This document shows positions 10,861 through 35,133 of a stretch of DNA of 64,000 nucleotides, piece after piece. Position 1 is the stretch's first letter. Each line of letters starts with the position of its first letter. Origin of the DNA: Labia minor (lineage: Eukaryota; Arthropoda; Insecta; Dermaptera; Spongiphoridae); contig OY720345.1 of the NCBI GenBank assembly GCA_963082975.1, forward strand, positions 1,749,001 to 1,813,000. The letters run 5' to 3'. A model generated the notes under the pieces. That model had not been told where the DNA came from and made no database searches. It saw only the letters and a list, made by a program, of their open reading frames with translations. Position numbers and translations under genes: made by a program.

Positions 10861-10891
<31 letters not shown>

Positions 10892-12814: not shown

Positions 12815-12859
<45 letters not shown>

Positions 12860-13270: not shown

Positions 13271-13310
13271 TATATATATATATATATATATAATATTTAT
13301 CGGTTTTGAG

Positions 13311-13695
13311 TGGTTGTATTATATGGATCTGAGGCATGATCTATGATCCTGGGAGATGAGAGTAGATTGAAAATTGGATTCTTCGCAGCATTCATGTACC
13401 AAAGAAAGATGAGGTCACCGGAGAATGGCGGAGACTGAATAACGAGGAATTGCATGACCTTTATGCATCTCCATAAATAGCCAAGAGTCATAGAATCAAG
13501 AAAATTGCGATGGGCAAGAATGAAAGAGAAAAAAAAAAGAATGGTAAAGGATCTATGGGTGGGGAGACCGATTGGGAAACGTCCGGTTGGAAGACCAAGA
13601 ACGCGATGAGTGGACAATAATAGGAAGGGACGTGAAAGAGATGGGAGAGGGTAGTGGTTGGATGGTTATAGCTCAGGATAAGGACATTTGGAGAA
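13311..13695 (+). pseudogene. Non-LTR retrotransposon 3' fragment (copy R1)
   Basis: Aligns by eye with the 3' part of the reverse transcriptase pseudogene at 37322-38481: GGATCTGAGGCATG, CTTCGCAGCATTCATG, GATGAGGTCACCGGAGA, ACGAGGAATTGCATGACC, then the GGTTGGAAGACCAAGAACGCG stretch. In related elements this segment encodes the post-RT tail (YGSEAW, RRxLYNEEL, GRPRxRW words). Here it has stops and shifts. A TA repeat (13271-13292) abuts the 5' side. Confidence 0.85.
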
Positions 13696-14206
13696 AAAAG
13701 ATTTTTTTTATAAAATATACATATATCAAAAATCAAAATAACTTTAAAATTATGTTAAAAATATTTATAAGAAATGATTCAACTTGTTATTTATTAATGA
13801 ATACATTTATTAAAAACAGTTTAAAATGCCAATTCGATATGAATTTATCTTATTAATTCATTATTCAAATATTCTTTTAAATAATACGGAATATACTAGA
13901 TTTTATTTTTTAATTTTATTGAAAACAAAATGTACCATATGAATACAAAATTAAAAGTATTATTATTAGATTACTTTTTTATTTTTAAAATAAATTTATT
14001 GAATATAAATATAAATATTTTAGCTATGGTAATAGTGTATTATGATATCTCAAAACACCATATCTTCTTTTAATTGATAATTTTCCATTCATCAAATTTA
14101 CCAAATCAAAATAAATTAAAAATATTTATACATATATATATAAAATCTACAATATACATATTATTTTGGATATTTTTTAATTCTAGTTTTGTTTTATCAT
14201 ATATAA
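13696..14206. other. AT-rich stretch, no gene seen
   Basis: No supported feature beyond A/T runs. Confidence 0.5.
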
Positions 14207-14207
14207 T

Positions 14208-14615
14208 AGGTTGGGTAATAAGTTTGCAGTGTTTTTATATATTCTTTATTTTAGCCTGAATTGTTTGTAGATTAAAATGAGAAATTTAAAGAAGACCATC
14301 ATGATCTGTGCTTTTGGGAGTGCATGGGAGTGGTATTCTTTGGACCTTGCACCTATCAATTACCATCTTCCACTCTCTGTGAAATCATATTTGGGGCGTT
14401 AGCAACGACAATAAAGAGGATCTTAAAAAAACTGTCTCAACAACCTCTTCAATAACAGACCGAGAGAATTTTGGCAAAATGGCATGTGGGAAGAGGTCAT
14501 TGGCTAAGACATAATTAATTAATTTATGATTATAAATATTGATTTTTGATTAAATTAAAGTTTTTGAAAAAAAAAAAATAATAATAAAACGCTACGAACT
14601 TATTACCCATCTCAA
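14208..14615 (+). mobile_element. Internally deleted mariner element with both terminal repeats
   Basis: Left end GGTTGGGTAATAAGTTTGC and right end, in reverse complement, GATGGGTAATAAGTTCG form mariner-type terminal inverted repeats next to TA dinucleotides. Inside, 14331-14372 reads WYSLDLAPINYHLP, which corresponds to the YSPDLAPSDYHLF signature around the third catalytic Asp of mariner transposases. That Asp codon is AAT (Asn) here, at 14358-14360. Downstream, FWQNGMWEE-like codons match the transposase C-terminus. At about 0.4 kb, against about 1.3 kb for intact mariners, it is a deletion derivative that could only move in trans. Confidence 0.88.
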
Positions 14616-15440
14616 TAATTGTATAAATTTAAAAAAAAAATTTTTTATTCACTTTACTAATATTTTTTTGGTACTTTTAAATATTAATAGAAATAATTTA
14701 TTTTAATATATAAATTGAATAGATAGACTTTTTAATAATAAAATTGGCATAAATATTTATAGGAGTGTTCAATAGAGATAAAACCGAATAGTTTTATCAT
14801 AATAATTCAATTCTCCAAAACATGTATTTTGTTTTGATATATTTCTATGTGAGGAGTGGAGGAAAGAACTATTCAAGCGTGAAACCAATATCAATAAGGA
14901 CGGTCGAAACGTAGAAAGAAATCCAATAACATGAGGAAAAAAATCATGAGCATACAAATCAAAATAAATTTATTGGCAACATTTTGTTCTGAAATTATGG
15001 AATGGATATAATTCACCCTAATCTTTTTTTTTTTTACCATATGTAAATTGTCCATAAATTTGTAGAAAAACATACCAAAGTAGGACAAATTGTCCATAAG
15101 CAAAAATAAAAATGCTTTTTGTCCCCCTCACCTCCATCATCTTGAATAAAAAGAGATTTTTTTTTTCACCTAAGATTTAGATCAGTTTCAAATATCAAGA
15201 ATATTATATATGAATGCAATTACTTCTATTCATCTTTGTGATTTGTTAGAAATAAAAGATGGCTCTCACGCCTGGAAATAAAACGCGACCGAACTCCTAA
15301 AAATGTTATGTTATGTTACTAGGCTAAAAATCTTGATATATATAATTGATGTTGGCCACATTAAAGAGACGGAACCCACTCATACAATGGAAATTTCATT
15401 TTGCACAAGACAAGAAGAAAAACGAAGCTGTCAAGTGATA
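14616..15440. other. AT-rich stretch, no gene seen
   Basis: Short overlapping frames on both strands (14769-14957, 14891-15103, 15303-15515) have no recognisable motifs. Confidence 0.45.
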
Positions 15441-15458
15441 GAAAAAGGCTGGAGCGGA

Positions 15459-15566
15459 CGAGGAGGAGGAGGGGGGGGGGGCGGGGGTGACCGCAAGTTG
15501 CCAATCATTGAATAGCGTTCAGTCTCGAAATGGATTCGAATCCCTCCCCCTCCCCCTCCCCCTCCG
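15459..15566. repeat. G-run and C-run pair with G-quadruplex potential on both strands
   Basis: A GGA repeat and a 12-base G run (15460-15486) are followed about 55 bases later by three repeats of CCCTCC-like units (15541-15566). The second block has four C runs of at least three separated by single T, a G-quadruplex motif on the minus strand. Confidence 0.85.
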
Positions 15567-16590
15567 ATCCGATATACAGACAACCAACCCCTTCCTTTTG
15601 GCGGATATTACATCGCAGATGGAAGCTCAAGGCCTGGGGTTATAAATGAATCGCCGATATAATCCTACGATTTGTTACGACAAGGTTATTCTTCTGCTTG
15701 GATCGAAACGAACTCGGTAATATATTATTACCGAAGCGATATTAGCGCTAATAGGTGATTTATCATCGCCTAAGTGATTTCTACGAGTGTTCAAGAAGAT
15801 AGCAAAAAATGGATAGCAGGCAACCTTCGGGAAAAAATCCAATCCCCTCCCCTCACCCCCGTCCAGTTCACATTCTTTTAATATACAAATTAAATCCAGT
15901 CAGAAGGGAGTAAAACGATTCTTTCCGATGTTAAAGAAAATAAATTAAATAGTGTACCCAATTTAAAATTTTCTTGGCTAAAAATCAAAATTAGATAATT
16001 TTTCATTGAATCATTTCAAATGAATATCATTTTATGAAAATTAGTTATTTTCTGTTCAATCGTTTATAAATTACCAGAGAATTTAAATTAAAATAAAATT
16101 AATAATAAGATAAAAGTTAGGCAACTATGAATGTCAGAATCATCATTATCATGAATAAAATATTTTCTAGACAAGGAAATTTTATTATATTATATTGAAT
16201 CATTATCTCTTTGAAAGGAAAATAATATTCAATCTTTTTCATCTTATACATATATTATCTAAACACATATAAATATAACCATGTTCAAAAAGACCCATTG
16301 CAATATTAGTTCATAAAATATTTAAATCAACATATAATATACGAGATTTAGTAAAAAGTACAATTTTAAGGAATGATTCAATTTTTTTTTATTTTTATTT
16401 ATAATAAATAACAATAATGATGATGATGATGATGATGATGAGACAAATATGTAGATAGATTCTATATTGTTTTAACGATTTCAATAACAAGTTTTTATCT
16501 TTTGCAATCTATTAAATATTAATATTTTCATTTGAAATCATACAATATCTAATAAAATGAAGTTATTATTCATTTATTCCAACAAGATCG
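15567..16590. other. Moderate-GC then AT-rich stretch, no gene seen
   Basis: 15590-15870 is GC-richer without a recognisable frame. An ATG/GAT trinucleotide repeat lies at 16418-16440. Confidence 0.45.
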
Positions 16591-17005
16591 GTCTATCTCT
16601 GAATTTGGCTCTACGGAACTCGAAAATGCTTGGTCGCAGCAATCCCATTTCTTCAAGTGTCCTTATTCTGTGAGCGACACAACCATCCAACTCCTACCCT
16701 CTCCCATCTCTCTCACTTCCCATCCTACATTGTCCATCCATCGCGTTCTTTGTCTTCCAACCGGTCGTTTCCCAATCGATTTCCCCATCAATATATCCTT
16801 CACCAGTCTTTTTTTTTTCTCTATCAATTCTAGTCACGTGTCCTGTGCATCACAATCTTTTTGATTTTATGACTCATAGAGGTCATGCAATTCCTCGTTA
16901 TGCATGCTTCGTCATTTCCCGGTGACCTGATCTTTTTTTGGCTCACATATGCTGCGAAAAATCCTTTTTTTTCAAATACTCTAAATCTACTCTCATCTCC
17001 TTGGA
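16591..17005 (-). pseudogene. Non-LTR retrotransposon 3' fragment, inverted (copy R2)
   Basis: Reverse-complement match to the 3' portion of the element at 37322-38481. From left to right it shows GGCTCTACGGAAC (3' terminus), GTCGCAGCAA, CCCTCTCCCATCTCTCTCAC, GGTCATGCAATTCCTCGTTAT, and GCTGCGAAAAATCC. It keeps the 3' terminal segment that copies R1 and R4 lack. Overlapping plus-strand frames over it are shadows. Confidence 0.85.
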
Positions 17006-17680
17006 TGAAAGGCCAATAATTGTTTTATATATTTTAATTTGGATTCCCTTTTTGATAATAATTTTGACGAGATACATGCGTTATCCGAATGTCACCTCAT
17101 TATTAGTATCCTTTGTGAGTTTTTAAATTTTTCTACATTTTCCTATTATTCAAACATAATAATAATATTAAACAAGTAGTTAATACATATAATAGTTAGC
17201 CTAATATTTAACTTGAACATATCTTTGTTTATGATATAACATAATTTAGATTTAAACAAATGTATTTATTTAAGTTTGTTCTTATTTTAAGAATAAATAA
17301 TAAAAAATTTTTTTTTTTATTTTAATTATTAAAATTATTTTTAATTTTATTATTAATTATTATTTGGTTACAGAGTTATTTGGGGGTTATTTATATAATT
17401 AATCGTAAAATTAAAATAAATGTATGATTTTATTTATTTTAAACATCAAATTAAATTGAATTTTTCAGTAGTTAGTCCAAATATTCTTAAAGTTTTTAAA
17501 AGTAACAATATACATAAACTATTGATGAAATATTTTGAAAAAAATAATAAAACGGAGAGAAAATAGAAACACCAGGCAAGATAATAGTTGAAGAATTTAA
17601 TAATAAAATATATAATTCAATTGGAACGGTACACTGGTTGTATTGTGTATAGAAATAATAGTCGATAATTGAAACCCCGT
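17006..17680. other. AT-rich stretch, no gene seen
   Basis: A 75-codon minus frame at 17496-17723 is hydrophobic and featureless. No supported gene. Confidence 0.45.
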
Positions 17681-17789
17681 TCATCATGCATGCTGGACGG
17701 ACCTCGGTCCTGTTCGCTAACAAAATCTTATTTGGCAGTGTCCAAGGAAACCTTTTCGGAAATAGTATTTATCAAATGCATTGAATCAT

Positions 17790-17869
17790 GGGGGGGGGGG
17801 GGTTGTTTGGTAGACGTAGTGTGTGTGTGTGTGTGTGTGTGGTGGGGGAGAGAGAGAGAGAGAGAGAGA
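17790..17869. repeat. G-run, (GT)n and (GA)n compound microsatellite
   Basis: A 13-base G run (17790-17802) is followed by a GT repeat (17819-17841) and a GA repeat (17848-17869). It accounts for the start of the 73- and 114-codon plus-strand frames here. Confidence 0.95.
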
Positions 17870-18245
17870 TTCGGGTGGTCTGTCTGTTAGTTGATGTGAG
17901 TCACGCTCGAATGGCTTGCCGTTTTATCGGGCACCAGAAAGAGAGGAGGGGAGAAATCCCCACCAAAACAAAACCCCTCCCTCCTTTTTTTTTTTCCAAA
18001 TTCACAATATGTAACATGAATAGGATTAGGATGAAGGATTTGGGAGGTACACTTGCTACTTATCAACGGCCGAGCTTGTTAATGGAAATCGAAGAAAAGA
18101 AGCATCGTTGGCGACATCCTATTAAACTGTAACGTTTCAGGAACAAAAGACAGAAGCCGATGAAGTGGACGAGTCCATCAAATAATCGGCATGGGGAACA
18201 GAATCGGTGGAGAGCGGGGAGATGGATGAGGGAAATCAAATAAGA
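17870..18245. other. GC-richer island, no recognised product
   Basis: A plus-strand frame runs to a stop at 18132 and ends in a charged peptide (MEIEEKKHRWRHPIKL), but it starts inside the microsatellite and shows no known domain. Possible conserved non-coding sequence or a short exon. Left unassigned. Confidence 0.25.
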
Positions 18246-19960
18246 AAGATGACTCGATAAAAAATTGATTTCTTTTTATTGCGGTTTTTAAAAAAGAAAA
18301 ACTTCCCTTGAATTTAATCGTTTATTCAAGAATTTAGGCCACGAGCCAAAATCGAAAGATAGAATACCATTTGGAAAAAATATTTTTATGAAAATGTACA
18401 TAACTGAAGAAATTGAAGATTAATATATATTGGCTCGAAAATAGACAAGTAATAATTATGTTCTTATGATCTATAATAAGAGTATATATATATATATATA
18501 ATATTATAGAATAAATAAGAAAGAAAAGAAAAGAAAAAAAAATATTATTTATTAATTCATATCAATTCATATCAAATCTATATACTATACCATTAAGTTA
18601 TATTTAAACTAATAATAATAAATAATCACCCAAAACAGGACTTGATTAAATTTTGGATTTAATTTGTAAAAAAATTGGTCAAAATATACGAAAAATTGAT
18701 TTTAAGTACACTTTTATGTCTTTATTTTATTTATTTAATATTTACGTTTTAGTTTAAATTTATTTATATTTTTTATTTACAAAAGAGTCTTAAGTTTTTA
18801 TTTCATGAATAATATATATTTTATTTTTAAAGGTTTATTTAAAAATGAGAATAATATAAATATCATAGATAATGTTTTAATTATTATAATTATCCTTTTC
18901 AGAAATATTCACTTAAATCAAACTATAATATTATAATTATATTATAACATTATTTGCCCTTAATTTAAGACATAAACAAACAAGTAGAATCATATATTAA
19001 ACAAAGTAGTAAATTTTACCTTTCTCGTTATTAAAGGCATTTAGATGAAATTAAACCATTTAAAATCACAAAAGCGTTGATTATTCTTAAGATATGTAGG
19101 TACAATATATGCGGTATGTTCTAAACAGATTAACATTAATGCAAGATTAAGCTGCAAGATGGATGAAAACAAAGCGAGACAAGCCAGAGACAGGAGAAAG
19201 ATACATGGGAAAGGGTGGGGAGAATAAAGAAGATCAATCAGCATCATCTAAAAAATTAACATATAAAGTAAGTATATACTTACATAGACATATTAATTAA
19301 CAGATATGTTATCATAAAATAATAAATTATGGAGTAATTTATTTCATTCTACTTATTTGAAATTATTAAAAGAAAACAATATTAGTAATATAGAAATGAT
19401 TAAATTATTTATTCAAATTTTTGATGAAAAGAAATGATGATGATGATGATCAACGGTTTCAATAGACATATAAAAAAAACTCTGTTTCATTAAACACTTT
19501 AAATTGTCGACTATTTGCAATTATCTCGACATGTTAATTATTATCAAATTTGTTCATATTTTCTATTTAATCATATTTTTTATATTAATATTAATAATAT
19601 TTAATGTTTATCTAACAAAAACAACTAAAAAATAATATCTATAAACAAAATCATCTTCCTACATAAAACTGTTAAAATTCTAATTAAAGTATTAAAAATT
19701 ATTTGAAAATTTATAGATATATAAATATTTTTTTTAAATAGTAGACTAATATATTATATGTATATGCAGGGAAATATCTTATATTAAGAGAATTTTTTTT
19801 GTCTATCAAATAAAGCATAAATTCATAAATTATATTTAACTAATGTATTAATATTTGAAAAAATAAAAACTTTATTGTTTAAGCGTAATTGTGTGTGTGT
19901 GTGAACTTCTCGCTAATTTGAAATTGAAAAATTTTGAAAAACTCTACGGACAAAGGGGGC
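18246..19960. other. AT-rich stretch, no gene seen
   Basis: TA repeat at 18483-18500 and a short ATG repeat near 19435. A small GC-richer patch at 19130-19250 encodes charged residues on the plus strand and hydrophobic ones on the minus strand, with no motif. Confidence 0.45.
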
Positions 19961-19965
19961 AAACA

Positions 19966-19979
19966 CTGTCACGTGACAG
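19966..19979. promoter_or_regulatory. Perfect E-box palindrome CTGTCACGTGACAG
   Basis: A 14-base perfect palindrome with a central CACGTG, containing GTCACGTGAC, the preferred site of bHLH-zip factors of the USF/MITF/TFEB type. No coding context is nearby, so the regulatory role is inferred from the motif alone. Confidence 0.4.
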
Positions 19980-21620
19980 AGGTCTGAGAATTTGAATATG
20001 CCTGCTTGTTTTAATGCCTTTTGTTTTGAGCTTCTTATCCAGCGACCTCACTAGAGAGGTATTTGAATTTGTATTAATTAATTTGTTAATTTACTTCTAA
20101 ATTATAATTTAGAATCTATTGTTTATTTGAGGTCCATTGGTTACGATTTTCTTTGTTTGCATATTGAACGACCTCAAATTTGACAATTTTTTTTAAGTTG
20201 GACATGATCAATTTTCATCGAATTAAAGAAATTTGTTTTTATCATTTTTAAATTTTTCTTATAATTTTTTTTTATTAATTATATTATATATGACTTATAG
20301 GTAGGTAAAAAGAAAATATTTTTAATTAATAATACAAATGAAAACATTAAATAATTTAGTTGAAAAATAAAATCATTTTTTTACATTGCGTGTTTATTAG
20401 AATAAATTAAAATTGTCATATGCAGATGAGGCCCACATTAAAATTATAAATTATTTAGGTATCTATTTTAATTAAATAGGTATATAAAGTTAAATTTTAT
20501 CCTTTGAAATTTATTGGATATAATATACGCTAGAAGTATTTATTGGTATCCTACGTGTATATAAATACATACAAATACATGTACCTAGTAGTAGTAGTGT
20601 AGTAGTATAAATGTTTCCTTTGAATTTTATAATTTCCATTCAGTGTAATATTATATTTTGTATGTTAAACTATGTATATCGTATACATACATATATATAT
20701 ATTAAATAAATTGTTTTTTAAATTTTCAAAATAATAATAAGCTAAAATATTCATTTAGATACGAATATAGGTAATACACAATAGAAAGAATTTGTTATTA
20801 GAGTTAGTAGAGTAAATATATTTGAATGTTCATTTGCCAAAATGAAATAAAATCAATAATCCCCATTCTAAATCTTTATTTACACAAAACGTTTACCGGT
20901 CAAATGGTCATCATCGAATTAAATCAATAATATTATTCAATCTAATAGCACAAGAGTCTATATTAGAAAATCTAGAGAGTAAAAAGTGTCTCTAGTGAGT
21001 ATAAATAGAATATAATGTACCAATTTATTGAAGGATATTAATATAATATTATATATAATGAACTCTCTTAAAAATAGGACCAAAATGGAGACCGAAATCT
21101 CACAATCAAATGTGAAAATTTCCCGGAAATAATTTCTCATTATATTTATATAATATAAATGATATTTTTTTTTTGATTTTCCAATTCAAATTTTTATATC
21201 TGCCCATTTTTTGGGCAATAATAAAATATTTATAATTATTTACAATATAATATATAAATGAGCACTGATTTTGGAAATATTGGTAATATGACAGGGAAGG
21301 GAGAAAGTGTGTATTGGGCATTAGAGGGTATTCAGGGAGATAATAGGATGGGAGAGGGAATCAGAGAGAGATGGGTAGGGGCAGCGTGCTAACGTCAGGT
21401 TGTAACAAGTAAATCATGTGGCTGCAGTCGTCAAAGTCTCTTCTTAAGTTCTCAAGTTAAGTTCTCTGTAGTAATAAGTAATAAGATGTCTTGCTTGTGG
21501 GTTTTGATGAGAGGTGAGTTTGTTTTTGTTTTTTTTTATTGTAATTAATGCTGTTCTCTCTCTCCTATGTTGAATGATATGATCGGTGAAAGGGGGGAGA
21601 TGTTGAAGATATGATTTTGT
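19980..21620. other. AT-rich stretch, no gene seen
   Basis: 19980-20070 is slightly GC-richer. Minus-strand frames at 20958-21140 and 21106-21321 are low-complexity AT-rich shadows. Confidence 0.45.
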
Positions 21621-21623
21621 TTA

Positions 21624-21938
21624 TTACCATAACCATTCTTCATCGGGCTCACCAGGGTCGAATTCGGTAGGTCTAACAAATGGATTTGTAAAGTGGCGGA
21701 CGCCTGAATTGGATTCTCGTGACTGTGTCATCCGCGAAGGGGTGGCCAGAGTAGTGAGATCGCTCAGAGGAATGTCTGCAGTGAATAAGTGATATAGTAG
21801 TAGGGGCCTTGAGGGACTCCTGTCCTGCATACATATGTCATATGTCACACGATAGATAGAATAGAACATAGCAAAAAGGTGATTGGACAATTGAACGAAC
21901 GAGGGAGGAGGCTCTGATGCCAAACCAACAATAACCAC
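21624..21938 (-). pseudogene. Jockey-like non-LTR reverse transcriptase remnant
   Basis: On the minus strand the three frames together show, in order, GVPQG, LLLYHLFTADIPLS and PFADDT. These are the hallmarks of RT motifs 4 (GVPQGSxLSP), the following LYNIYTADIP stretch, and the catalytic FADDT box in jockey/CR1/I-type elements. They fall in different frames, so at least two frameshifts have accumulated, and nothing of the endonuclease or the thumb is kept. A 104-codon frame covers part of the region but is not a functional gene. It is unrelated in sequence to the element at 37322-38481. Confidence 0.72.
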
Positions 21939-22145
21939 AGCCCTTCAGATCACACGTACCACTCACTCTATGGGCCTGCTCCAGATTTGAAACAAGCAAT
22001 GACATTTACATCGACCATCGACATTGGCAGTATCCTTTTAAAAAGTTTGGAGACAAAAGTGAGAAGACTGATATGTATAAAAGATATTTGATGTAAATAT
22101 AAACATTTCTGATTCTGATTCTGATTCTGATTGGATTTTTTTTTA
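21939..22145. repeat. Flank with (TTCTGA)n repeat
   Basis: Contains four and a half tandem copies of a TTCTGA hexamer (about 22108-22132) and a T run directly before the LTR fragment. Confidence 0.8.
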
Positions 22146-22313
22146 TGTAATAGTGGGAAAAATGACCCTTGATCTGGTGAGGGTGGCTGGCGTTTGCCTG
22201 CTGCTGGCTAGACAGACCGAGCTCGGACACTGAGGTGAGAGGAAGGGAACGAAGAGAGTGTGGCCCGAGAAGAAAGAAGACTTGTGACTATCTCAATTGA
22301 GACATTTATTTTT
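22146..22313 (+). mobile_element. Truncated LTR (5' part), plus orientation
   Basis: Begins TGTAATAGTGGG and is identical, base for base, to the first 168 bases of the complete LTR at 22621-22914 read in the opposite direction. Identity stops at 22313, after which the sequence becomes an unrelated CA/TA-rich tract. With one more matching base at 22145 the two form a perfect 169-bp inverted repeat. No polypurine tract precedes it, so it is a fragment and not the 3' LTR of an element lying to its left. Confidence 0.9.
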
Positions 22314-22501
22314 ATAAACACACACAAATATTATATATATTTAAAGATATAAATACACATTACTATTATAAATAATATTATATAAATTTATAAATAAAAC
22401 TTATTTTCTATTTGAAAAACATTTAAGTAGATTAACTGAATGAATACGGACTTTGAACATACACATTTTAGAAAAAAAACTTTATATATTATAAAAATTC
22501 T

Positions 22502-22505
<4 letters not shown>

Positions 22506-22548
<43 letters not shown>
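22506..22548. repeat. (AT)n microsatellite
   Basis: About 21 uninterrupted AT units lying between the two LTR copies. It cuts off the internal part of the retrotransposon. Confidence 0.95.
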
Positions 22549-22551
<3 letters not shown>

Positions 22552-22600
22552 ATGAAGGGTCCCTAATTTATTCTAATTGTAGAATAGTATAGGTAACTCA

Positions 22601-22617
22601 CCCCACACCTGACACCA
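22601..22617 (-). promoter_or_regulatory. LTR retrotransposon primer binding site
   Basis: On the minus strand TGGTGTCAGGTGTGGGG starts three bases (ATT) after the LTR end. It begins with TGG, the complement of a tRNA CCA end, as expected for a reverse-transcription primer site. TGGTGTCAG resembles sites attributed to leucine tRNA; that assignment is from memory. Confidence 0.75.
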
Positions 22618-22620
22618 AAT

Positions 22621-22914
22621 TGTAAGCGGGTTGTCCCCTGGTTAAATCACAAATTAAATATAAAATAATTTAGATTTATTTGAATCCAAATTTTAATTAC
22701 ATTTATAAACTCTAAAATAAATGACAACTTAAAAGTAATTATTAAAAAAAATAAATGTCTCAATTGAGATAGTCACAAGTCTTCTTTCTTCTCGGGCCAC
22801 ACTCTCTTCGTTCCCTTCCTCTCACCTCAGTGTCCGAGCTCGGTCTGTCTAGCCAGCAGCAGGCAAACGCCAGCCACCCTCACCAGATCAAGGGTCATTT
22901 TTCCCACTATTACA
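22621..22914 (-). mobile_element. Complete LTR of an LTR retrotransposon
   Basis: Read on the minus strand the 294-bp LTR starts TGTAATAG and ends CGCTTACA. It has the TG...CA ends of LTRs, with 5-bp terminal inverted repeats TGTAA/TTACA, and a primer binding site follows it directly. About 70 bases of internal leader remain before the AT microsatellite at 22548. No gag or pol sequence of this element is present in the window. The 5' two thirds is duplicated in inverse orientation at 22146-22313 without a single difference. Confidence 0.9.
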
Positions 22915-22915
22915 T

Positions 22916-24049
22916 TTAAATTTCCCGAATAATAAATTAACCTTGTCCTCTTATTTTATTATATTTGGTTAAAAACAAATTCAAAAGTACATAATTGACT
23001 TATCTAAATAAATTAATCCTTATTGAAAGGTCAACTTTTTTTGAAATTACTTATATTTTATTTATCATTATTATTCTCTTTTTTTCGTATTTTTATATAA
23101 TAAAATTATTGCGGTGGAGAAATTAATAAAATAAAAATTAAAAATAATAATAATAATAATAATTACCATTTATTTATCAATCTCTAAATACATTATTTTA
23201 TTTGATTATTATTATTATTATTATTATTTAATGGAAATATTTTTATTTAATTTAAATTTGTCAAACGTGACAATTGATTAAAATAAAAAAAAAAAAAAAA
23301 AAAAAAATCTATTCTCTCTCTCTTTTTTTTTTTTTTATCCCCTCGAGTTAATCACTTGCGTTGTGCTGACGAGATATACATATATACTACATAGGTATGG
23401 TTCGATGCATGTGTGGGTGCTTTGGTGAAGGGTATGAAAGCGGTGGGGCGTGCAAAGCAACCCCACCCCCACCCCCCTTCAACCCCACCTCCTCATCCTT
23501 CCCTCCAATTCACTCATCCAAGCCAACGTCAAAACGCCTACATTATATCCAAATGAAAGCTTATTATAATGGCTCTGGTGCGAACTGCCCATAAAGCAGT
23601 GACAATGCATAAAAAAACAATATCAAAGGATAAAAACCTTGAGATGTTGAGAATTTCAAAAAAATATAAAAAAAAAACATTCTACTCCCACTATTCTGTT
23701 GTATACATTAAGTATACCACGAATAATAAAAGAAAATCATTTTGAATGAATTATTAATGATCATTCCAATGTGCAACAACCAAAAGGTTAATAGAGATCG
23801 TTTAAGAGTTATTTTTATATATATAGTTCAAACACAGATGGAGAAACCACACATCAATAAACAGAAAATGCACAGTTTTTTTTAAATAAAAAGAGATTCA
23901 TAATTGATATAGGAATATTATACGATATTATATAAAAGAAGTATAATTTCTTCTTCTTCTTATTCTTTGTTTTTTTTTTAAATTTCCCCATAAAACTTAT
24001 TATAAAATAATTTCAATTTTAATCAATAAAAAAATATAATTAATGGTAG
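22916..24049. other. Intron sequence downstream of the CELF exon
   Basis: AT-rich, with AAT/TTA repeats (about 23145-23230), a 23-base A run (23285-23307) and a C-rich patch at 23461-23482. The 65-codon plus frame at 23397-23594 is low complexity. On the minus strand this is the intron that starts at the donor 24055. Confidence 0.6.
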
Positions 24050-24055
24050 ACTTAC
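24050..24055 (-). other. Splice donor of the CELF-like exon
   Basis: The minus strand reads CAGGG|GTAAGT, a consensus GT donor directly after the Gly codon that ends the exon in phase 0. Confidence 0.9.
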
Positions 24056-24138
24056 CCCTGGCAATGTCCGCTTCTCATGTAAGACGCTTTGTGCGTTGAG
24101 TGCGCTCTCTCGACTGTAGTAGGTGAGGAATGCACACC
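24056..24138 (-). CDS. bru3: CELF/Bruno-like RNA-binding protein, RRM1 exon (partial gene)
   Basis: CELF proteins bind UG/GU-rich RNA and control alternative splicing, translation and decay. The exon encodes (G)[16 protein letters not shown], then [11 protein letters not shown]: the RNP1 strand of the first RRM (CELF consensus KGCAFLTY), the second helix and the following turn. CAFLTY and SALxAQ fit the CELF3-6/bru3 branch; CELF1/2 have CCFVTF here. The exon is 83 bp, enters after the first base of a Gly codon and leaves in phase 0, as I know for this exon in CELF genes. Minus-strand flanks are a T-rich tract ending GTAG and a GTAAGT donor. Frame 1 is also open but has no known similarity. 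The preceding exon (KLFVGQIP half) and the following one (MNRPIQVKPADSE) were not found, so introns are long on both sides. The match is by recall, not by search. Confidence 0.93.
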
Positions 24139-24162
24139 CTACAAAAAAAACAAAATAAAAAA
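24139..24162 (-). other. Splice acceptor and polypyrimidine tract of the CELF-like exon
   Basis: The minus strand reads TTTTGTTTTTTTTGTAG|GG, a nearly pure T tract ending in the AG acceptor at 24140-24139. Confidence 0.9.
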
Positions 24163-25430
24163 ACAGCACTTTGATTAATTTAAATTCCAAAAAATATTTA
24201 ATACTTAACCAAATAATATATAATAATTATTATAAAAAAACAAGTATACTAAAAAAATATATTAGATACAAATAAAACATTGAAAATACAATTATACTCG
24301 TATGTATATGTGCCACTGAGAAGTTAAACCGATTAACCGATTAATTTTTAAAATTTTGCTAGTAATTTAATGTAATATAATGTAATGTAATCTGTAACAT
24401 ATGAAATCAATAATGAACTTGATAATCTTAATATTGCAATGTCGTAATATACATTTTTTCTGGAATCAATAACCCTGGATTTCCTACAAGCTGTGAACTT
24501 TGGACTTCATTTTCTTACTTTATTTATATGTGGAGTTGAACGCTTTGACTTCTGCCTTGAGTGGCACATAGGTACATATATAAAATCCCTAATCACTGTT
24601 TCTGTAACAGTAAGTTGCTCCCGAACGCGACCCTTGGTGGCCGAAGTGTCTCGAGCCTCTTACAAAAAAATGCCGAGAAAGTACAATTTTTTCTATAATA
24701 ATAATAATAATAATAATAGTGGTTGTAATGAATAGAATAGAAAAAATATATTTCTCTTTGTTTATTGATATCAAATATGTCTATTATTTATTACAAATTC
24801 AATAAAGTTTAATCACTGTACTAATAAGATTTTTGTTGCAAGATAAAATTTAATTGATTGAAAATTGATTACTCTGATCTGTGAAAATGACAATCTCATT
24901 CTCTAAGGGATATATTCTTCTGTTCAGACAGATTTTGTTCATTAATTAATATATTTTTTATACTTTTACTTATCTAAATTTAGTTATTATCACCAAACTA
25001 AAACATTTTAATGAATTATAAATACTTATACAACAGTTGGTTTCTATTAATATTAAATATTTAAAAACAAGAGTAAACAAAAAAATTCCAATACATGTTT
25101 TGTTCTAAGAACAATACATGTTGTACGTGTTTATTATTTATTATAGATTTACAATGATCTTGTGTTGTGTAATTGCATTTCTTGTTATTATTTCTAATTT
25201 ACTTTTCAAGAGCTCCCTCTCCAAGTTAATGGTATGATAACAATTATTATTAATGAAAATTGTAAACCATCCTCCTCCTATCTCTAAATGTGTTGTTTTG
25301 TTTAGTTTAATTAGTTAAAGTGTTTAATGATTTTCCTTAAATGATACATAATAAGAATAATCGAGTGGGAGATACGAGTAATTTTGGAGTTAAGACAATT
25401 CGACAGTAGTAAAGTATGATAAATTCATGC
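24163..25430. other. Intron sequence upstream of the CELF exon
   Basis: AT-rich, with an AAT repeat at about 24698-24718. An 80-codon plus frame at 24493-24735 contains that repeat and has no motif. TACTCGTA and TACGAGTA octamers occur at about 24296 and 25374. Confidence 0.5.
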
Positions 25431-25950
25431 TGAAACTATTATCAGTAGATTTGGGGAGATGGAGACGCTTGTCTCTTACCTTCATGATGGGCTAAGTTCA
25501 TTTCCGAAGGGGCGCTAATGAGACATTGGGGTTGAAGTCGCCTCTGTATAAAAGAAGAAGAGGGTCCCGATATTGGACACGAGGCTATCCTCCCACGCCC
25601 TATCCCATTCTGGCCGTTTGTGCGAAACAAAGATAAATGACGAACGATTTAAGGAAGAAAGGAGAGAGAGAGAGAGAGAGAGAGAGAAACGATGACCAGA
25701 GCGAAGTTAAAAACTAATTACAGTCCCAAGAAGGCAAAGAAAAGCTGACACAAGGAGAACAATATGGAGGTGAATCGTCAAAATGATGACACAATATATT
25801 GCATCCAAGTCCAATAAAAGCCTCGCTGACAACTTTATCTAATTCAATTAAAGAATGTCGGGCTAGTGCCAAAATATACACATGGACAATGGCCCTGGCC
25901 TCTTTCAAAACTATCTCAAATAAAGGAAAAAACAACTTTGACCAAATTCT
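25431..25950. other. GC-richer island with (GA)n, unassigned open frames
   Basis: Contains a GA repeat (25661-25687). On the minus strand a frame of about 80 codons (to a stop at 25714) encodes an amphipathic peptide including LARHSLIELDKVVSEAF with no family I recognise and no acceptor in front, only an A-rich tract. Random frames of this length are expected in 64 kb, so I do not call a gene. Confidence 0.3.
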
Positions 25951-27694
25951 ATAAACAGCTTCATTTTTGTTTTGTTTTGTTTTTTTTTTTTTTTTTTTGT
26001 TTTTATTAATACTTCGTTTAAAATATTATTGATTAATATTCAGGAGGAAAAACTTGAATTGATTTTATTAAACAAAAGTAAAATATCCAGTGATGAAAGC
26101 AATTTAAAGACTGATTAATTAATCAATATTACAATTCAAAACGATTATATTTGGTTATGTCACTATAGAAATTGAAATATTTATACTAGATAAATTAATA
26201 TGATTCTGCAATTCTAAATTCATTCATTAAGAGAGTTCATGGGGGATTGGATCAATTTATAATATGTTTAGTAATTAGTACTACTATTTCTAACAGCTAC
26301 GTTACAAGGATTTGATGAAAGACAGAAAAATCAATAATAAATAATATATATATATAAACTATTTTATCTGTACAAATAATATAGATAAATATTATTTATG
26401 AACAAATAAAAAAAAGAATTACTGTTTTATATACCAAAAATTATTATTTTTATTTAAAATTAATTTATTATATAGATATATTTTAATTTAAAAAAAAAAA
26501 AAAACTGGTAACTAAACATTACATATAAACACACACACACACACACACACACGCACATATATATATATATATATATATATAAAATCTTAATTGAAACTAG
26601 CTAGTATGGAAGATTTTTTTTTCCAACTTTTTTTTTATTATGGAAGTTTTTTGAACATAAACTTGTACTATAAAAATATAACTCTTTTGAACTTTTTATG
26701 ATTCCAATTATTTCCATGTGCCAAGTTCATCATTTCATTTCGTGTCACTTATCAAAAGTTCATTGATCATAAACAAGTTATAGTTTGGAATAATATTAAA
26801 ATATTATAAGGTAAAAAACAATAATATAAATTACCTCTATGAAAATTATATTATATTTTATTTATGTAGTAAAATTTAAAATTTATAAATAGTTTAAGAT
26901 CAATTTTAGTTTAGTTTAATATAGTTTAATATATTCTTACATAAGCATATGAGATTAGGAATAATTATAATATTTGTTTTCTTTCGATTTAATTTCTTAA
27001 TTTATTTTATATCTTCACAAAATAAAACAAACATTGTTTAATCAAAGATGAGCACATTTGGATAATATATTTAATTTATTTTCAAAAAGGGCTTAGAAAA
27101 GGATCTTCTTGAAGAGAGCAACGTCTTTTGGTCATGAATGCCAGTCGGGGAACTTCATTGCCTTCTGTCACCATGCTAATGTAACACACCAGAATAATCC
27201 GATGTACATCCAAATGACGCCATTATGAATACTCGGGTCCAGCCAGCCTCCGGGTCCACATCACAGCTGAGTGTTGAAATATTGTCCTGATCAAAGACAA
27301 ATCTAATAATACTGATTCGAGAATATAAATAGACTTTGTATTTGAACTTGAATAATGCATTAGGTTGATGGGATGGATTTATATATTGAATTAAATATGC
27401 ATAGAGGTTGATGGACAAACTTGACGATTAGACAAAATCTTGATCTATAAATAAAATGCATCGAATTGTAAGATTTGAAATCATTTCTTTTCGTTATAAT
27501 TAGAATAGTTCAAAAAGTATAAATATTCTAATAAAAAAGAGAAAAATTAAAGTATAAATGTATCTAGAGTTAGTTAAATTAAATTTGATTTGTATGGAAT
27601 TACACATATTTTGAAGTAAATCTTATATCGCCCCCCCCCCCCCCTTAAAAACAAAAACAAAAAATAAAATTAAAAAGTTAATCGTCATCATTGA
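25951..27694. repeat. AT-rich stretch with T runs and (CA)n(AT)n
   Basis: T run near 25980, a compound CA repeat (26529-26552) plus AT repeat (26557-26581), and a 14-base C run at 27631-27644. A GC-richer patch at 27070-27300 has no recognised frame. Confidence 0.6.
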
Positions 27695-28130
27695 AAAAAT
27701 AAGTTGACCTGTGGCCAGGCGCATAACTGACGGACAGTTTGAAATAAATTAATTTCCAGCTACAGAAACAATTTCAAATAATTTTAAATGTATCTTATAA
27801 TGCAATATAAAACAGATTTGAATGGATATAACATAAATATTTTTAATTTTATTTTATTTATAATATATAAATTGAGCTGGCTGTGACTTCATGAAGAGCT
27901 GGATGACGTCCTATAATTTTAAATTAAGAAAAAACTAATGAAGATGATTTTCCCGAGGAGATAAAACCAATACAAAGTCCATGATTCGTGGAGATATGTA
28001 AAAAAAAGCTGTACACATCTATACGGACACACAGCGAACGGACGGACAGACATCCTGCTAAAAATTCCTTTTTATTTTCTGTGAAATTTGGTGTGAAAAC
28101 AATACCTCCCTTACTATCGTCGGTCGGTAA
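27695..28130 (-). mobile_element. Family B inverted-repeat element, inverted (copy B3)
   Basis: Starts with AAGTTGACCTGTGGCCAGG and GACGGACAGTTTGAAATAAA at the left and ends with GTGTGAAAACAATACC and the terminal repeat CGTCGGTCGGTA at the right. The middle carries a variant block, GACTTCATGAAGAGCTGGATG and ACCAATACAAAGTCCATG, shared with copy B4 and absent from B1, B2 and B5. There are therefore two subfamilies in the window. Confidence 0.85.
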
Positions 28131-29591
28131 TAAAATAAAATTGTCCAAATTTATTAAGTAAATTGTACATTTATTAATTTTGAGATAATCCCTAAATGAA
28201 CAGAGTGAAAGGTTATATCGTATGGTGTTTACGCATGTATGCGTAATTTCAAAAAAAAAAAAAAATGAAATATTTAATTAAATAATTATTTTATAAATGT
28301 AAGTTGCTAGAATTAAGAGATTTCAATTTTTATAAGTTGGTGAACAGTTCAAGTACGCTAGCTCTATCTTCACTACTTTCCCCGAACGTCACAGTTGTTC
28401 AACGTGTGGCTTCTTCTCCATCTGCTTCTGATCCTGTTCGAGTATCAGAGATCATTGAAGCTCTGATTCCATAGGTCATTTATTTATTTTAATAAGATCA
28501 TTTTGGGCTTTTTTAATAAATTTATCAATCTTTAGAATTATTTTATTTAATTAAATAATTATTTTATAAACTTGTTATAAATCTTCAGTAATTAAGTAAT
28601 TTAAGTATTATTTTAATATTACGGTGATCTTGTTCATTTATATATATTTTTTTTTTTTGTAATTAATTTTGTTAATTTAAATTATTATAATTTAAATTTA
28701 AATATTTCTTTTTTCTGAATAATTTTCAATTACTGAATTTTGTATCAGTTTCTTTATTTTTAACGTTATTTTTAATATTTCATCTATGTATATCAAGTTA
28801 AAAATGATTTAAAAAATAAGTGTTTATTTGTTATATTTAATTAAGAATTCTTTCGCATCTGCCAAACAAACTGCTTCTGAAGATCATTGCTGAAGAGGTT
28901 GCTGATTTAACACGAAAATGAATTTCTAATTGTATTCAGCAATGGATTGGATCTTTTGAATTTCCCAAAAATCCTACGCTTGTACCCAGATATCGCCACT
29001 CTTGAATTATAGAGTGTATGTCTCCTTTTTATCGAAAGGAATGAAATGATGTAAAATAATAATTAAAGAGATTAAGCGATAGAAATGATCCAGAATGGTT
29101 TCCAAGGGACGCGAAAAGGGAGGCAAGTCTTATTATGGCAACAATGCTAACTTTGGTGGTGGGCTATCGATCGTAACTTTTGTGTATTCTTCAAAAATGT
29201 CTTCTTTTAGTAAACTCACCCGAATCACTCCCACCATTCCCATTGCTACCATGTGACACGCCTATATATCAACGAGCACAAGAGAACACTTCTCCAAATG
29301 TTTAAAAAAAAAAAAAAACTCACCACAAAGTCATTTGAACTGCTTGAGATTTAGTTTCCTTTTAAAGGATTTCCATAAATTTAATAAAAAAAAAAACAAC
29401 AACTTTATCGCATATTCACTCAGGTGAAAGTATATTTGCATTCACTTTTATCACACTGACATCTATAAATCAATTAATTAATAATATAACATTTCAAACT
29501 TTTAAATTTGTAAATATTTTCAGATTATTTAAAATTCTAAACCGGGATTCTCTCGCTCTCTCTCTCTCTCTCTTTCTTCCTTATAATTTTT
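28131..29591. other. AT-rich stretch, no firm gene
   Basis: 28340-28470 and 28850-29330 are somewhat GC-richer. A CT repeat lies at about 29551-29572. A candidate minus-strand splice donor, TTCGG|GTGAGT at 29220, follows codons for SNGNGGSDSG. It is unproven and discussed as a finding. Confidence 0.35.
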
Positions 29592-29943
29592 ACTATCTCG
29601 CAAGAAAATTTTTGATGTTTTTATACGTTTTGAAGGTTCCTGAATCCTTTTCATTAAGGTTGAGAAAAATGTCTGTCTCTGTGTGTGTGTATGTATGTAT
29701 GTAAACAAGATTACGAGAAAAAAGGTTTGAGCTAAAATCATGAAATTTGGTATACGGGCATTATTCAAAATTCCTAGTTTTCTATTAACTTTTGAGAAAT
29801 GGAGCTCAACCGGAAGAGGGTCATTACCTACCACGTTTTGATAGCCAATTTTAATTTATAATTAATTAAATTTAATTTAAATATAATATATTATGTTAAT
29901 TAATCCAATTCAAAATTGCGAGATAGTCGAGTGGAGACACTCC
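29592..29943 (-). mobile_element. Family A element, inverted, with both terminal repeats (copy A3)
   Basis: Left end ACTATCTCGC and right end GCGAGATAGT are a perfect 10-bp inverted repeat; the hairpin end GGAGACACTCC follows to 29943. Inside are the right-half blocks: AACGTTTTGAAGGTTCCTGA in part, a TGTG/ATGT microsatellite, GGTTTGAGCTAAAATCATG, and CAACCGGAAGAGGGTCATTA. The middle of the left half is deleted compared with A4. Confidence 0.88.
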
Positions 29944-30260
29944 AGCTAATTGTATATATTTTTCTTTTAGCAATATCTCTAAACTCAAAATAATAATTAA
30001 AATGATAAATTTAGAGAATTATTGAAATGAATTCATTTATATATTCAAGATGATGAATTGAATAAATACACTTATTTATTTATTTTTTTTTAATTTTATT
30101 TTAATAAAGAAGAAAATATTAAGTATTATGATGAAAATAATGATAAAAACTGCTATTTATGATTGTATTATAATGTTATTTAATGGAGATATTATTATAT
30201 ATATTAGAAATCTATAATACGAATACGTAACATATTATATATGTATTTTCAAGTTCTTTT
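29944..30260. other. AT-rich stretch, no gene seen
   Basis: No supported feature. Confidence 0.5.
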
Positions 30261-30920
30261 TTTAGTGAATGTTGTTCAAAGGGATCCCTGCTCGGATTTT
30301 CACGATAGAAAACAATTTGACTTTCATGTTTCGTGATTTTGACATTCTCGTAACGTTCAACAGTGTGAATGTGTGTGTGTGTATATATGAGCATCATCAT
30401 TCCTGTGGTTTTTCTGTTCTCTAACATGCCAGACAAAAACAGGAGGATAAAAAGGCAGTGGTGTCCGTCCGTCCGTCTGCCACTACGATGCATTCGTTAT
30501 GGGGACGTGTGCGCTCATGGAAATTCGCTTGGGTGTCGCTTGCCTTTCGGCGATGGCGTCATCGCCTCGTTTATCAGCTTTCCATCCCCTGGCTTCTTTC
30601 TTTCACCTCGGCATGAAGAGAGAACGAACGAGAACGGACACATCCCATACCCATACAATAAGCCAGCAAGACTCGACAAAGATAATTTGCCTTTGTGCCT
30701 GGTCCTATGGCAATGGGTTGCCATGGCAACGAGACAGACAAGCACGTATATTTACATCGGTGGTCCATTTATCAAACGGACCCGAGGAGCCATCTTATAT
30801 TACTAACTCCTCCTGTCACAAACTGGAACCAGTAACAAAAAAAAACAACAAACGAATACAAATTAACAATATCATCGCATCAAAGAATAGGATTGGAGTG
30901 TGGATTTTTCTATTCTAATC
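30261..30920. other. Moderate-GC island with long overlapping frames, candidate regulatory region
   Basis: The longest plus-strand frames of the window (145 and 139 codons, 30369-30806 and 30499-30918) overlap in different frames here, with minus-strand frames across them. None shows a domain, and splice signals are not convincing, so the open frames reflect higher GC. A GT repeat lies at about 30367-30382. The segment holds the RFX-type palindrome described separately. An enhancer within the CELF intron is one reading. Confidence 0.4.
30717..30730. promoter_or_regulatory. Perfect RFX X-box palindrome
   Basis: GTTGCCATGGCAAC is a full match to the X-box consensus GTNRCC-N(0-3)-RGYAAC bound by RFX factors. 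A second inverted pair, ATGGCAA and TTGCCAT, overlaps it at 30708-30725, so three half sites lie within about 25 bases. In animals such sites are typical of ciliary genes and neuronal enhancers. No ciliary gene is visible nearby. Confidence 0.6.
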
Positions 30921-31442
30921 TAAAATTAAAATTAAATAGATCGCCGGGGAAATGAATTTCATCATTCAAAGGGAATGGACCGTTTTTGTTTTTCCGGTGG
31001 AATAAATAAGAAAACCTTTTAATTTTTTAACTTTTTCTAAAAAGAAAATTAAAATATTCTACTTTATATCATTACTAGAGTATTATTTAGTAAAGTATTT
31101 TAATTTTTAATAAATATTTATTTTGTTTAATTACATGTGTAAAAATATTAAAACTAGGTCAGTGAAACAATTCCAATCTTTTAATATCAATGAATTCTGA
31201 ATACTAATTTCAATATTTAAAAGAACTTTCATTAAAAATAGATAATTATTTAAAAAAAAAAAAAAAAATAAAAAATAGATAATGATTATTGACGTGAATA
31301 AAAAATATTATATGTACAATTTAAATGAAATTGACTTACAATGAAGGTGAATAAGGATGGTTAATGGTGAAAATTTGTTATTACTAGTACCAATATTATA
31401 TAAAAATTGCAACTTTTTGAAACTTTTGTTAAAGAAATTAGC
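30921..31442. other. AT-rich stretch, no gene seen
   Basis: A-rich with one A run near 31252-31268. No supported feature. Confidence 0.5.
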
Positions 31443-32036
31443 TGGAGTGTCTCCACTCGACTATCTCGCAATTTGAATTGGATTAAATAACATAATATAT
31501 TATATTTAAATTAAATTTAATTAATTATAAATTATAAATAATAAATATTAAACCAGCGCATGTTTGGCTTTTTATTGATGGCACCATGGCACGTGTTGGC
31601 GCGTGAGATTTGCAGTGTTAAAAAATTAATTCTGGTACTTTCAGCAATTCAATCAAGCTGAAATTCTATATATAGCAGTTTTATACAATTATTAATCATG
31701 TGAAAAATTATCAAACATATATTTTTATTTTTACGGTCACTTTAGAGGAAAAAAAATCAAAACGTTGTAGGTAATGACCCTCTTCCGGTTGAGCTACGTT
31801 TCTCAAAAGTTGATAGAAAACTATGAATTTTGAATAATGTCCATGTACCAAATTTCATCATTCTAGCTCAAACCGTTTTTGCGTAATCTTGTCTACATAC
31901 ACACACACACACACACACACAGACATTTTTCTCAACCTTAGTGAAAATGATTCAGGAACCTTCAAAACGTATAAAAACATAAAAATCTCAACATCGAAAA
32001 TTTTCATGATCGCAATACTATCTCTGGCGAGATAGT
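31443..32036 (+). mobile_element. Family A element, most complete copy (A4)
   Basis: Hairpin end GGAGTGTCTCC (31443), then ACTATCTCGC at 31460-31469, and the inverse GCGAGATAGT at 32027-32036. The left half carries CCAGCGCATGTTTGGC, a GGCACGTG block and TCAAGCTGAAATTC and ends at ACGGTCAC (about 31740). The right half starts TTTAGAGGAAAA and carries GACCCTCTTCCGGTTGAG, TAGCTCAAACCGTTTTTGCG, a CA repeat (31899-31921) and GGAACCTTCAAAACG. About 0.6 kb with no coding capacity: a non-autonomous inverted-repeat element. Confidence 0.9.
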
Positions 32037-32560
32037 AAAAAGAAATGGTCCAAAATTGTGAAAGGTTAAGATGATTAAATCGATAAATAACTAATTTTGA
32101 TAGAATTTCTTGTTTGCAATCTTGCAATCTCGTTCCAATAGCTAAAGACAGACCGACACGCACTCCGTTTTGTTCCCCGGTGGGAATGTCGTCAAGTCTT
32201 ATTTGGTGACTTTCAATATTCCCAGATGAATGAAGATGTGCCTATACTAACAAATGAATCGCAGACGGTCGTATTTAATTTACATAAATTGAAATCCCCA
32301 AGATAGTCGAGGCTACTATTTCTATTTAATTGGAAGAACTCGATTGCAGAATTTACAGACGACAAATTTGCATGATACCTTGGAGAGTTCCCAGAGCAAC
32401 TCAGCATGTCACTTTATAAAATAAATATCGGAAAAGAGAAGGCATCGCTTGAGATAAATTGGCAGTCAGGACAGAAGGAAATATCTATGGATTGTATAAT
32501 ATATCTAGAGAACATATTGAACTTGAAGTATATTTGCCTTGAATATGATTAAGAAAGTCT
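32037..32560. other. Moderate-GC stretch, possible 3' UTR side of the candidate exon
   Basis: No recognised frame. If the exon at 32653-32862 is real, this lies downstream of its transcript end. The reverse complement of 32562-32567 is AATAAA. Confidence 0.3.
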
Positions 32561-32652
32561 CGGTTTATTTGTGGTTGATTTATGTGTTTGTAGGGAGAAC
32601 ACTTGTGAATACAAACATTGCATTCACTCGATACACAACAACAACAACAACA

Positions 32653-32862
32653 TCAACAACTTCCATTGCATAAACATGGAGGTGAATCTATCTTGAGTTC
32701 GTTCTTCACTCCTTCTTTTTGCCATAAATAAGAACCAATAATTCCAAAAGCAACTCCTCCTGTCAAAGAACCTCGACAAAATTTCACTACATCTCGTATA
32801 GAAATCATCAAATTCGACAATTGTCGAAAGGACAACTTCCTTTGCTTCTTGTGTCTATGCTC
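32653..32862 (-). CDS. Candidate terminal exon, unrecognised small membrane protein
   Basis: On the minus strand an open frame of 69 codons starts right after TATTTTTAG, a plausible acceptor (the in-frame TAG of that acceptor closes the frame upstream), and ends with TGA. The peptide begins very basic (EHRHKKQRK), then has one hydrophobic stretch around GSLTGGVAFGIIGSYLW that could cross a membrane, and ends with a Cys-rich tail (PPCLCNGSC). An AATAAA on the same strand lies about 85 bases past the stop. I do not recognise the family. It does not belong to CELF, so it would be a nested gene or chance. Evidence is composition and signals only. Confidence 0.25.
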   Translation of the reverse strand, partial: EHRHKKQRKLSFRQLSNLMISIRDVVKFCRGSLTGGVAFGIIGSYLWQKEGVKNELKIDSPPCLCNGSC

Positions 32863-33795
32863 CTAAAAATACTATTAATTGATTATTATTATTATTATTA
32901 TTATTGTTATTGTTATGTAAAAGAATCATTAAATTCATTTTAAGTTTCTTATTAAAAATATATTATTATTCAAAAAATATATTATTTTTCAATAAATTTT
33001 TTTTTTTTTATAAAAAAGGGTTTTACTGATTTGATGAATTGATAAATTAAGTTATTGAGTTGTTGATGAATTGTGGGGGATAATTTGAGCCTTTAGCAGA
33101 TAAATTTATAGACGCAATCAGGTTAGACTAGGATTAAATTTCCTTTCGTAAGATAATCTCCGCTCTATAATTAGCGGGCGAGTTTCATTTTAATATATTA
33201 TTTTCATTAGCGATATTCAATCCCACGAAGGGAGAATATTAAAATCGAGATTTTTAATTTAGTTTTCAAAATCTTATGGAGTTGGTAGTTGGTTTGGGAA
33301 TACTGGGTTGGAGTTATGAGAGGATGGAGGGGAAGGGCAGTTAAACTCTCTGTTTTTTGCAAGCCGGAAAATCACGTAGGAAAATTCATCCCTGCCTTGT
33401 GGAATTTTTAATGCATAGGAAGCTAATGTAACGAGAAGCAAATGAGCTTGCCGCCCTTGTCTCAGATGCGTGGGTGTGTATTGGGAGAGGGGAGGGGAGG
33501 GGAGGGCAAGGGGAGGGTGAGATGTTCTAACCCAACGCGAGGGACCTGCTTTTTGAAGGGAGTAAAAGACTTTGGCGAACAGACCTTGGAGTCTCGAACG
33601 TTGTTGCGAACAACGAAGGCAATTTAATGAAAATTAATCTTAACTAGAGAACAAATTCATGCCAACAACCCTTGACATATTAAAAATAATATTCAAATAT
33701 TCAAAAATAATTAATTTATTAAGAGTTTTCAATGATCATTAAAACTGTTTAATCATAATTAGAAAAGTTGAACGTTTTAATGAACAACACTTTTT

Positions 33796-33834
<39 letters not shown>

Positions 33835-34327
33835 AATGAAGGGCAAAGTAAAAAGTCGTGGGGAACAATTAGAATAAGTACCTACATACTATACAAATAA
33901 TTACGCTCTAAAAATATTTAAAATTCTTAAAGAGATAATTAAAGTTATATAATAATTGTAATTGAAATTGAAATTTCAATTGCAAAATATGTGTAATACT
34001 ATTTTTTTTTATTTTTTATAACTGTGTCTATATAATTTTAGTCAAGGGAGCGAAATAAAGAGAATAAAAAACGAGAAAGAAAAAAACAAGACACAAGACA
34101 AAATAAATAAATAAATATATGTATAGGTAAATGGAGAGGGTCAAAGTATATAAGAGCTATAAACTTTAAATCGATCCAATTTAATATGAAATTAATTAAT
34201 CAAATAATAAATTCGACATTTATTTTATTTTTTTCTTTAATTTAACGTCATAATTTATTAACTAAATTTGATAGTCAATGAATTAAAATTTCAGAATAGG
34301 ATGAGATGAGGTATCTGATTGAAATAT
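32863..34327. other. AT-rich stretch with GC-richer block and G-quadruplex
   Basis: Includes an ATT repeat (about 32884-32906), a GC-richer block at 33060-33640 with the G-run cluster at 33489-33517, and an AT repeat (33799-33831). A 61-codon plus frame at 33442-33627 spans the G runs and is not supported. Confidence 0.5.
33489..33517 (+). other. G-quadruplex motif
   Basis: Three GGGG runs and one GGG run are separated by single A (33489-33506), followed by further GGGG and GGG runs to 33517. This exceeds the G3+N1-7 pattern for an intramolecular quadruplex with very short loops. Confidence 0.85.
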
Positions 34328-35133
34328 CTTATCTTATTATGCTAGCTAAAATTGTATATATCTATCTATATATATTTCTATATATATTTCTATATATATA
34401 TCTATATATCTATTTATCTATAACCATTGGTTCTCAAAAACCGCTCTAACGTTTTTTTTCAAATTCACACTAGATATAGTATTTATAAAGAAAAATTGAG
34501 TTTTATTGATCACATCTCTTGAAACTTACAGCTTCATTATTAATTTCTTAATTGAAAATTATATATGGGTGACGTAAATGGCATCCATTTTGAAATTTTA
34601 CTCACGCCTTTTTTTAATTTTGTATTAATATTTTTTTTATTTATATTTAAAATATTTTAAAATTTATTATTTAATTTCGAAATAAAATTAAAAATATTTA
34701 TTTTTAATAAAATATATATATATATTTATTAATCTCTCTCAAAAAAAAATAACAACAAAATAAAAAATGGTTTTGAAATAATTTTTTTTTTTTTTTTAAT
34801 CTATTATTTTTTAATAAATTACTATTTTATATTTATTTATTCATTGTTCTTTTATTAAATTTAATATTTATTAATATTATTTATTATTTATCGATGACAT
34901 ATGACATTCATATTGAAATTTTACTCCCGCTTTTTTTTTAAATGATATTGTATTAACATTTTTTTATATTTAAAATATTTTAAAATTCATTATTTAATTT
35001 CGAAATAAAATTAAAAATATTTATTTTTAATAAAATATATATATATTTATTAATCTCTCTCAAAAAAAAACAACAAAACAAATAAATGTCTTTGAAAGAT
35101 GGTAAAAATATCTTTGTAATTATCAAAATATCA

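Follow-up and report, generated by a model that had tools for sequence, protein, structure and literature searches.

Drosophila Bru-3, described with two RRMs and with exons that include 49, 135, 80 and 144 bp (Kandul and Noor, PMC2767349), and the vertebrate CELF3-6 genes are the closest described relatives of the gene reported here. The largest Bru-3 intron given for D. melanogaster is 41,973 bp, and recursive splicing was suggested by the same authors for the large introns of that gene (PMC2767349). Our gene resembles vertebrate CELF3-6 (CELF4, 2dgp; CELF6, 2dgq) in its three RRMs and in an RRM1 with CAFLTY and MNRPIQVKPAD. With Drosophila bruno-3, as described, it shares exons of 49, 80 and 144 bp and a 5' region with large introns; it differs in that RRM1 exons are present, where the Drosophila description has no 83-bp exon and two RRMs, in a 126-bp exon in place of the 135-bp one, and in its largest intron, about 18 times longer than the Drosophila one (PMC2767349). 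Recursive splicing at ratchet points has been described elsewhere (PMC6110457, PMC8605326); here it is predicted from sequence alone. The gigantic Drosophila Y genes, in the account of PMC11207136, likewise have repeat-bearing introns of hundreds of kilobases, but with satellite DNA, whereas here a CELF gene, on a contig of 95 Mb, holds interspersed repeats and a Ty3-like element. Among the entries listed by literature searches on CELF exon sizes and gene structure and on giant insect introns there was no giant CELF intron, although one may exist in print; a search on recursive splicing listed PMC2767349 for Bru-3.

A CELF exon within a 64-kb window

The window analysed is a 64-kb stretch (contig C2, positions 1749001-1813000); the genome comprises 71 contigs and 604,477,936 bases in total. 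Its features are as follows.

24056..24138, minus strand: coding exon of 83 bp that encodes the second half of RRM1 in a CELF3-6/Bru-3-type gene (from sequence, homology and the joined frame)
24139..24150, minus strand: 3' splice site of the upstream intron, TTTTTTTTGTAG (from sequence)
24048..24055, minus strand: 5' splice site of the downstream intron, GTAAGTCT (from sequence)
1..24055, minus strand: first 24 kb of a 772,592-bp intron that extends to C2:1000464 (from the gene model)
24139..64000, minus strand: last 40 kb of a 139,919-bp intron that starts at C2:1913057 (from the gene model)

An initial annotation had proposed a minus-strand exon with strong splice signals at this position, and the 83 bases indeed lie in the right phase between a good acceptor and a good donor. 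The borders are a T-rich acceptor, TTTTTTTTGTAG/GG, and a GTAAGT-type donor, GGG/GTAAGTCT; the exon enters in phase 1 and leaves in phase 0, encoding (G) plus 27 residues with the RNP1 core CAFLTY. Aligned without gaps to CELF2 residues 53-80, the exon scores 96 (BLOSUM62), compared with at most 27 in 12 simulated order-1 Markov windows, confirming a match that leaves chance far behind. The suggested comparison with CELF proteins was equally clear: in a phmmer search of the PDB with the 28 exon residues, all eight distinct sequences matched up to E = 1 are CELF/Bruno-like chains, led by CELF2 (4lmz, 1.8e-11) and including a chain named 'trinucleotide repeat containing 4', which we take to be CELF3. 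Pfam alone did not place this short fragment, the only match being RRM_YTH1 (E 0.096, under the cut-off). Relative to human CELF4 (2dgp), the residue differs at 6 of 27 whole codons. A DNA search of the whole genome with window positions 24000-24200 returned a single locus, the window itself. A splice-pair scan requiring 13 of 14 pyrimidines missed this real exon.

The annotation had also reported no flanking CELF exon nearby, which holds over a wider range: CELF consensus stretches, run by tblastn against the 64-kb window and the surrounding 240 kb (in all, 224 kb on the downstream and 80 kb on the upstream side), matched no further CELF exon.

Gene model on contig C2

A whole-genome tblastn search with a CELF consensus gave 54 matches, most of them, judged by low identity, to other RRM proteins. 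Those to CELF on C2 are collinear and on the minus strand throughout, and gave the following gene model.

C2:1913292-1913058, minus strand: first RRM1 exon (KLFVGQIP), from its ATG, 235 bp
C2:1773138-1773056, minus strand: window exon, RRM1, 83 bp
C2:1000463-1000415, minus strand: exon MNRPIQVKPADSENRG / MNRPIQVKPADSE, 49 bp
C2:958637-958512, minus strand: first exon of RRM2, 126 bp
C2:909889-909810, minus strand: second exon of RRM2, 80 bp
C2:877521-877378, minus strand: exon after RRM2, 144 bp
C2:867705-867553, minus strand: first exon of RRM3, match in the whole-genome search, E 3.2e-27
C2:866433-866302, minus strand: second exon of RRM3, match in the whole-genome search, E 4.0e-20
C2:866301-866299, minus strand: stop codon TAA (from sequence)

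The same search matched the first half of RRM1 at C2:1913181-1913032 (E 1.3e-17), the window exon at 1773148-1773038 (1.4e-11), RRM2 at 958638-958507 (2.1e-16) and 909893-909804 (4.8e-8), and the exon after RRM2 at 877545-877435 (1.3e-8), all on the minus strand. The 49-bp exon was matched weakly (C2:1000463-1000368, minus strand, E 0.65) and became clear once the DNA was read: ACAG/ATGAACCGC...GGCG/GTAAGT. Thus both exons that had been named as ones to look for, KLFVGQIP and MNRPIQVKPADSE, are present on C2, with consistent strand, order and phase.

Among the six delimited exons, AG precedes exons 2-6 and GT follows exons 1-6; GTACAC, after the 144-bp exon, is a weak donor, picked to fit the known exon length. 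Spliced in silico, the six exons (235, 83, 49, 126, 80 and 144 bp) give 239 open residues. RRM1 and RRM2 lie in these joined residues (two RRM_1 stretches) and RRM3 in two further exons, which is the CELF/Bruno-like layout; candidate linker frames can be made out in the tail sequence. In exon order the introns measure 139,919, 772,592, 41,777, 48,622 and 32,288 bp, and the gene extends over 1,046,994 bp from ATG to stop. RRM1, a domain of about 85 residues, is thereby split across three exons over 0.91 Mb. The non-exon remainder of the window falls inside two introns of the model, in keeping with the earlier description of the window as largely intron.

Subfamily and a second CELF gene

By per-domain bit scores, used here in place of a tree, RRM1 of the C2 gene scores highest with CELF4 (156.9), followed by CELF6 (145.5), CELF1 (98.0) and CELF2 (94.0). 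Because the CELF4 score so exceeds that of CELF1, we assign the gene to the CELF3-6/Bru-3 type, and the original 'CELF/bru3' label is right at the subfamily level. Whole-chain scores for CELF1/2 are near-equal (about 154), being sums over two RRMs. For the 88 residues of RRM3, the best match among the 19 sequences listed is CELF2 RRM3 (2my7, 158.4 bits). From its family, the protein would be expected to bind GU-rich elements and to act in control of splicing and translation.

A second CELF gene lies on the plus strand of contig C10, with exons from 4287872 to 4517142. Its RRM1 scores 98.3 bits with CELF2 and 96.2 with CELF1, against 82.7 with CELF6, which places it with the CELF1/2 kind on these scores. 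This paralogue has its own 83-bp and 126-bp exons, the former preceded by about 75 kb of intron.

Candidate ratchet points in the 772.6-kb intron

We examined 304 kb of contiguous sequence, covering about 29% of the 772.6-kb intron. The sense strand of this sequence holds one strong zero-length acceptor/donor site, TTTTTTGTTTTTAG/GTAAGT at C2:1605329; at the same cut-off the opposite strand and 20 Markov-2 simulations yield none. A strict motif, Y10-KK-YYYAG/GTRAGT, designed after inspection of the matches to a looser pattern, has 110 exact matches genome-wide, compared with 5 for the reversed motif and 3 for a scrambled donor (GT to TG). Of the 110, two, C2:1363882 and C2:1443938, lie within the 772.6-kb intron, both on the sense strand. 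Their flanks differ, so they are not copies of one repeat. If sites were uniformly distributed, 0.07 would be expected in this intron (P(>=2) = 0.0024), although uniformity is an unfair null for sites that reside in introns. With two pyrimidines removed, the motif gave 155 matches against 11 in the control and the same two sites in the intron. Many of the strict-motif matches listed have TGTTTYAG before GTRAGT in common.

These motif counts support a predicted recursive splicing of the 772.6-kb intron, and the 110 matches against 3 with the scrambled donor suggest that the process is active across this genome. Removal would proceed stepwise via C2:1605329, 1443938 and 1363882, three ratchet points that would cut the intron into about 168, 161, 80 and 363 kb. 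Other same-strand series of ratchet-like sites, found with the shortened motif, lie at C1:20614050-20847688 (five sites), C4:58054654-58195422 (four) and C4:46330101-46494297 (three), all on the minus strand, as would be expected of other giant introns removed in steps.

Of the alternatives, removal of the intron in a single step survives best: the ratchet-like sites would then be ordinary unused sites or the starts of cryptic exons. In its favour, the looser pattern with one mismatch is not enriched (378 matches against 398 for the reversed control; those listed reach only into C1, with none from C2, and the 29 exact matches among those listed include none in this gene). Weighed against the genome-wide excess over the scrambled donor and the confinement of the sites in this intron to the sense strand, we hold single-step removal to be possible but unlikely.

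Transcription units and possible protein forms

We favour transcription of the C2 CELF gene as a single unit, which would place all three RRMs in one protein. Alternatively, the parts on either side of the 772-kb intron might be mainly two transcription units, with most mRNAs starting within the intron and encoding a two-RRM protein, and the RRM1 exons used in a rarer long form. An in-frame ATG opens the 49-bp exon. The published account of Drosophila Bru-3 gives exons of 60, 42 and 49 bp ahead of RRM2, no 83-bp exon and two RRMs (PMC2767349). The RRM1 exons here are nevertheless intact, in phase and bounded by good splice sites, which suggests that they are used, and we regard a division into two units as improbable.

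Joint skipping of the 83-bp and 49-bp exons (132 bp) keeps the frame; such skipping, or use of the in-frame ATG, may offer routes to a protein without a whole RRM1. Passage of the polymerase over 0.9 Mb takes hours at usual elongation rates. A more speculative proposal, to which we give little weight, is that the giant intron might act as a switch between two proteins: transcription of the full 0.9 Mb would yield the three-RRM form, and starts internal to the intron, with use of the ATG of the 49-bp exon, a form with two RRMs, as described for Drosophila Bru-3. If such a switch existed, intron length and recursive splicing would set the time and place at which RRM1 is present.

Content and continuity of the large intron

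The length of the intron depends on the scaffold of one assembly. Unrelated sequence might have been inserted between its two exons by misassembly, about 29% of the intron having been read contiguously; yet there are no N bases in the 304 kb of contiguous sequence or in 20 probes of 500 bases each across the remaining intron, all exons found are consistent in order and orientation, and the ratchet-like sites within the interval sit on the sense strand. An assembly artefact is therefore very improbable.

Sequence repeated within the 304 kb makes up 24% of it. In the window, interspersed repeats at 8979-9475, 11940-12275, 27692-28135, 48839-49253 and 58728-59258 have 18 to 29 overlapping matches in the 200 kb downstream, and a 29-bp unit lies in tandem at 40360-40419 (2.1 copies, 100% match). 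Some frames of the interspersed repeats gave chance tblastn matches, for example FTYLHESCIFLT. The 64-kb window holds no tRNAs and no Rfam families.

Frames of at least 75 aa number 313 in the 304 kb, and 106 were searched for domains, so small exons might escape. A Ty3-like pol frame (L004:3018-5987, plus strand) and a Ty3-like gag frame with an N-terminal SAP domain (L006:481-2856, plus strand) lie in the 772-kb intron. A 199-aa frame (L003:5782-6378, minus strand) has a FAR1 DNA-binding match at E 1.2e-4, under the Pfam cut-off. Seven other frames searched with these had no match, and a further 96 gave a single weak one, to DDE_3 (E 0.0036). On the frames searched, host genes within the part of the intron that was read were considered and rejected; the two long frames are pieces of a Ty3-like retrotransposon.

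That the window exon is a relic or displaced copy outside any working gene, as the CELF-free 224 kb on the downstream and 80 kb on the upstream side might suggest, is rejected on the collinearity and phase of the C2 exons, its neighbours simply lying farther away, and a second exon of this type is absent from the genome except in the C10 paralogue; we give this reading almost no credence.

Implications

Taken together, the evidence is very probably best explained by a real internal exon in a minus-strand C2 gene of the CELF3-6/Bruno-3 type with three RRMs, for which one transcription unit and a stepwise-spliced intron are predicted. The exons with their phases, splice signals and order, the subfamily, and the zero-length acceptor/donor sites in the large intron can be read from the DNA itself. 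The gene family is ordinary and of a known kind; the interest lies in the size of the intron and in its ratchet-like sites.

Gene prediction programs that limit intron length will break this gene apart and miss its RRM1. With its predicted ratchet points, a 773-kb intron (approximate length) within a single small domain of a conserved gene, in a 604-Mb genome, would serve as a clean test case for the transcription and splicing of giant introns beyond the well-studied cases.
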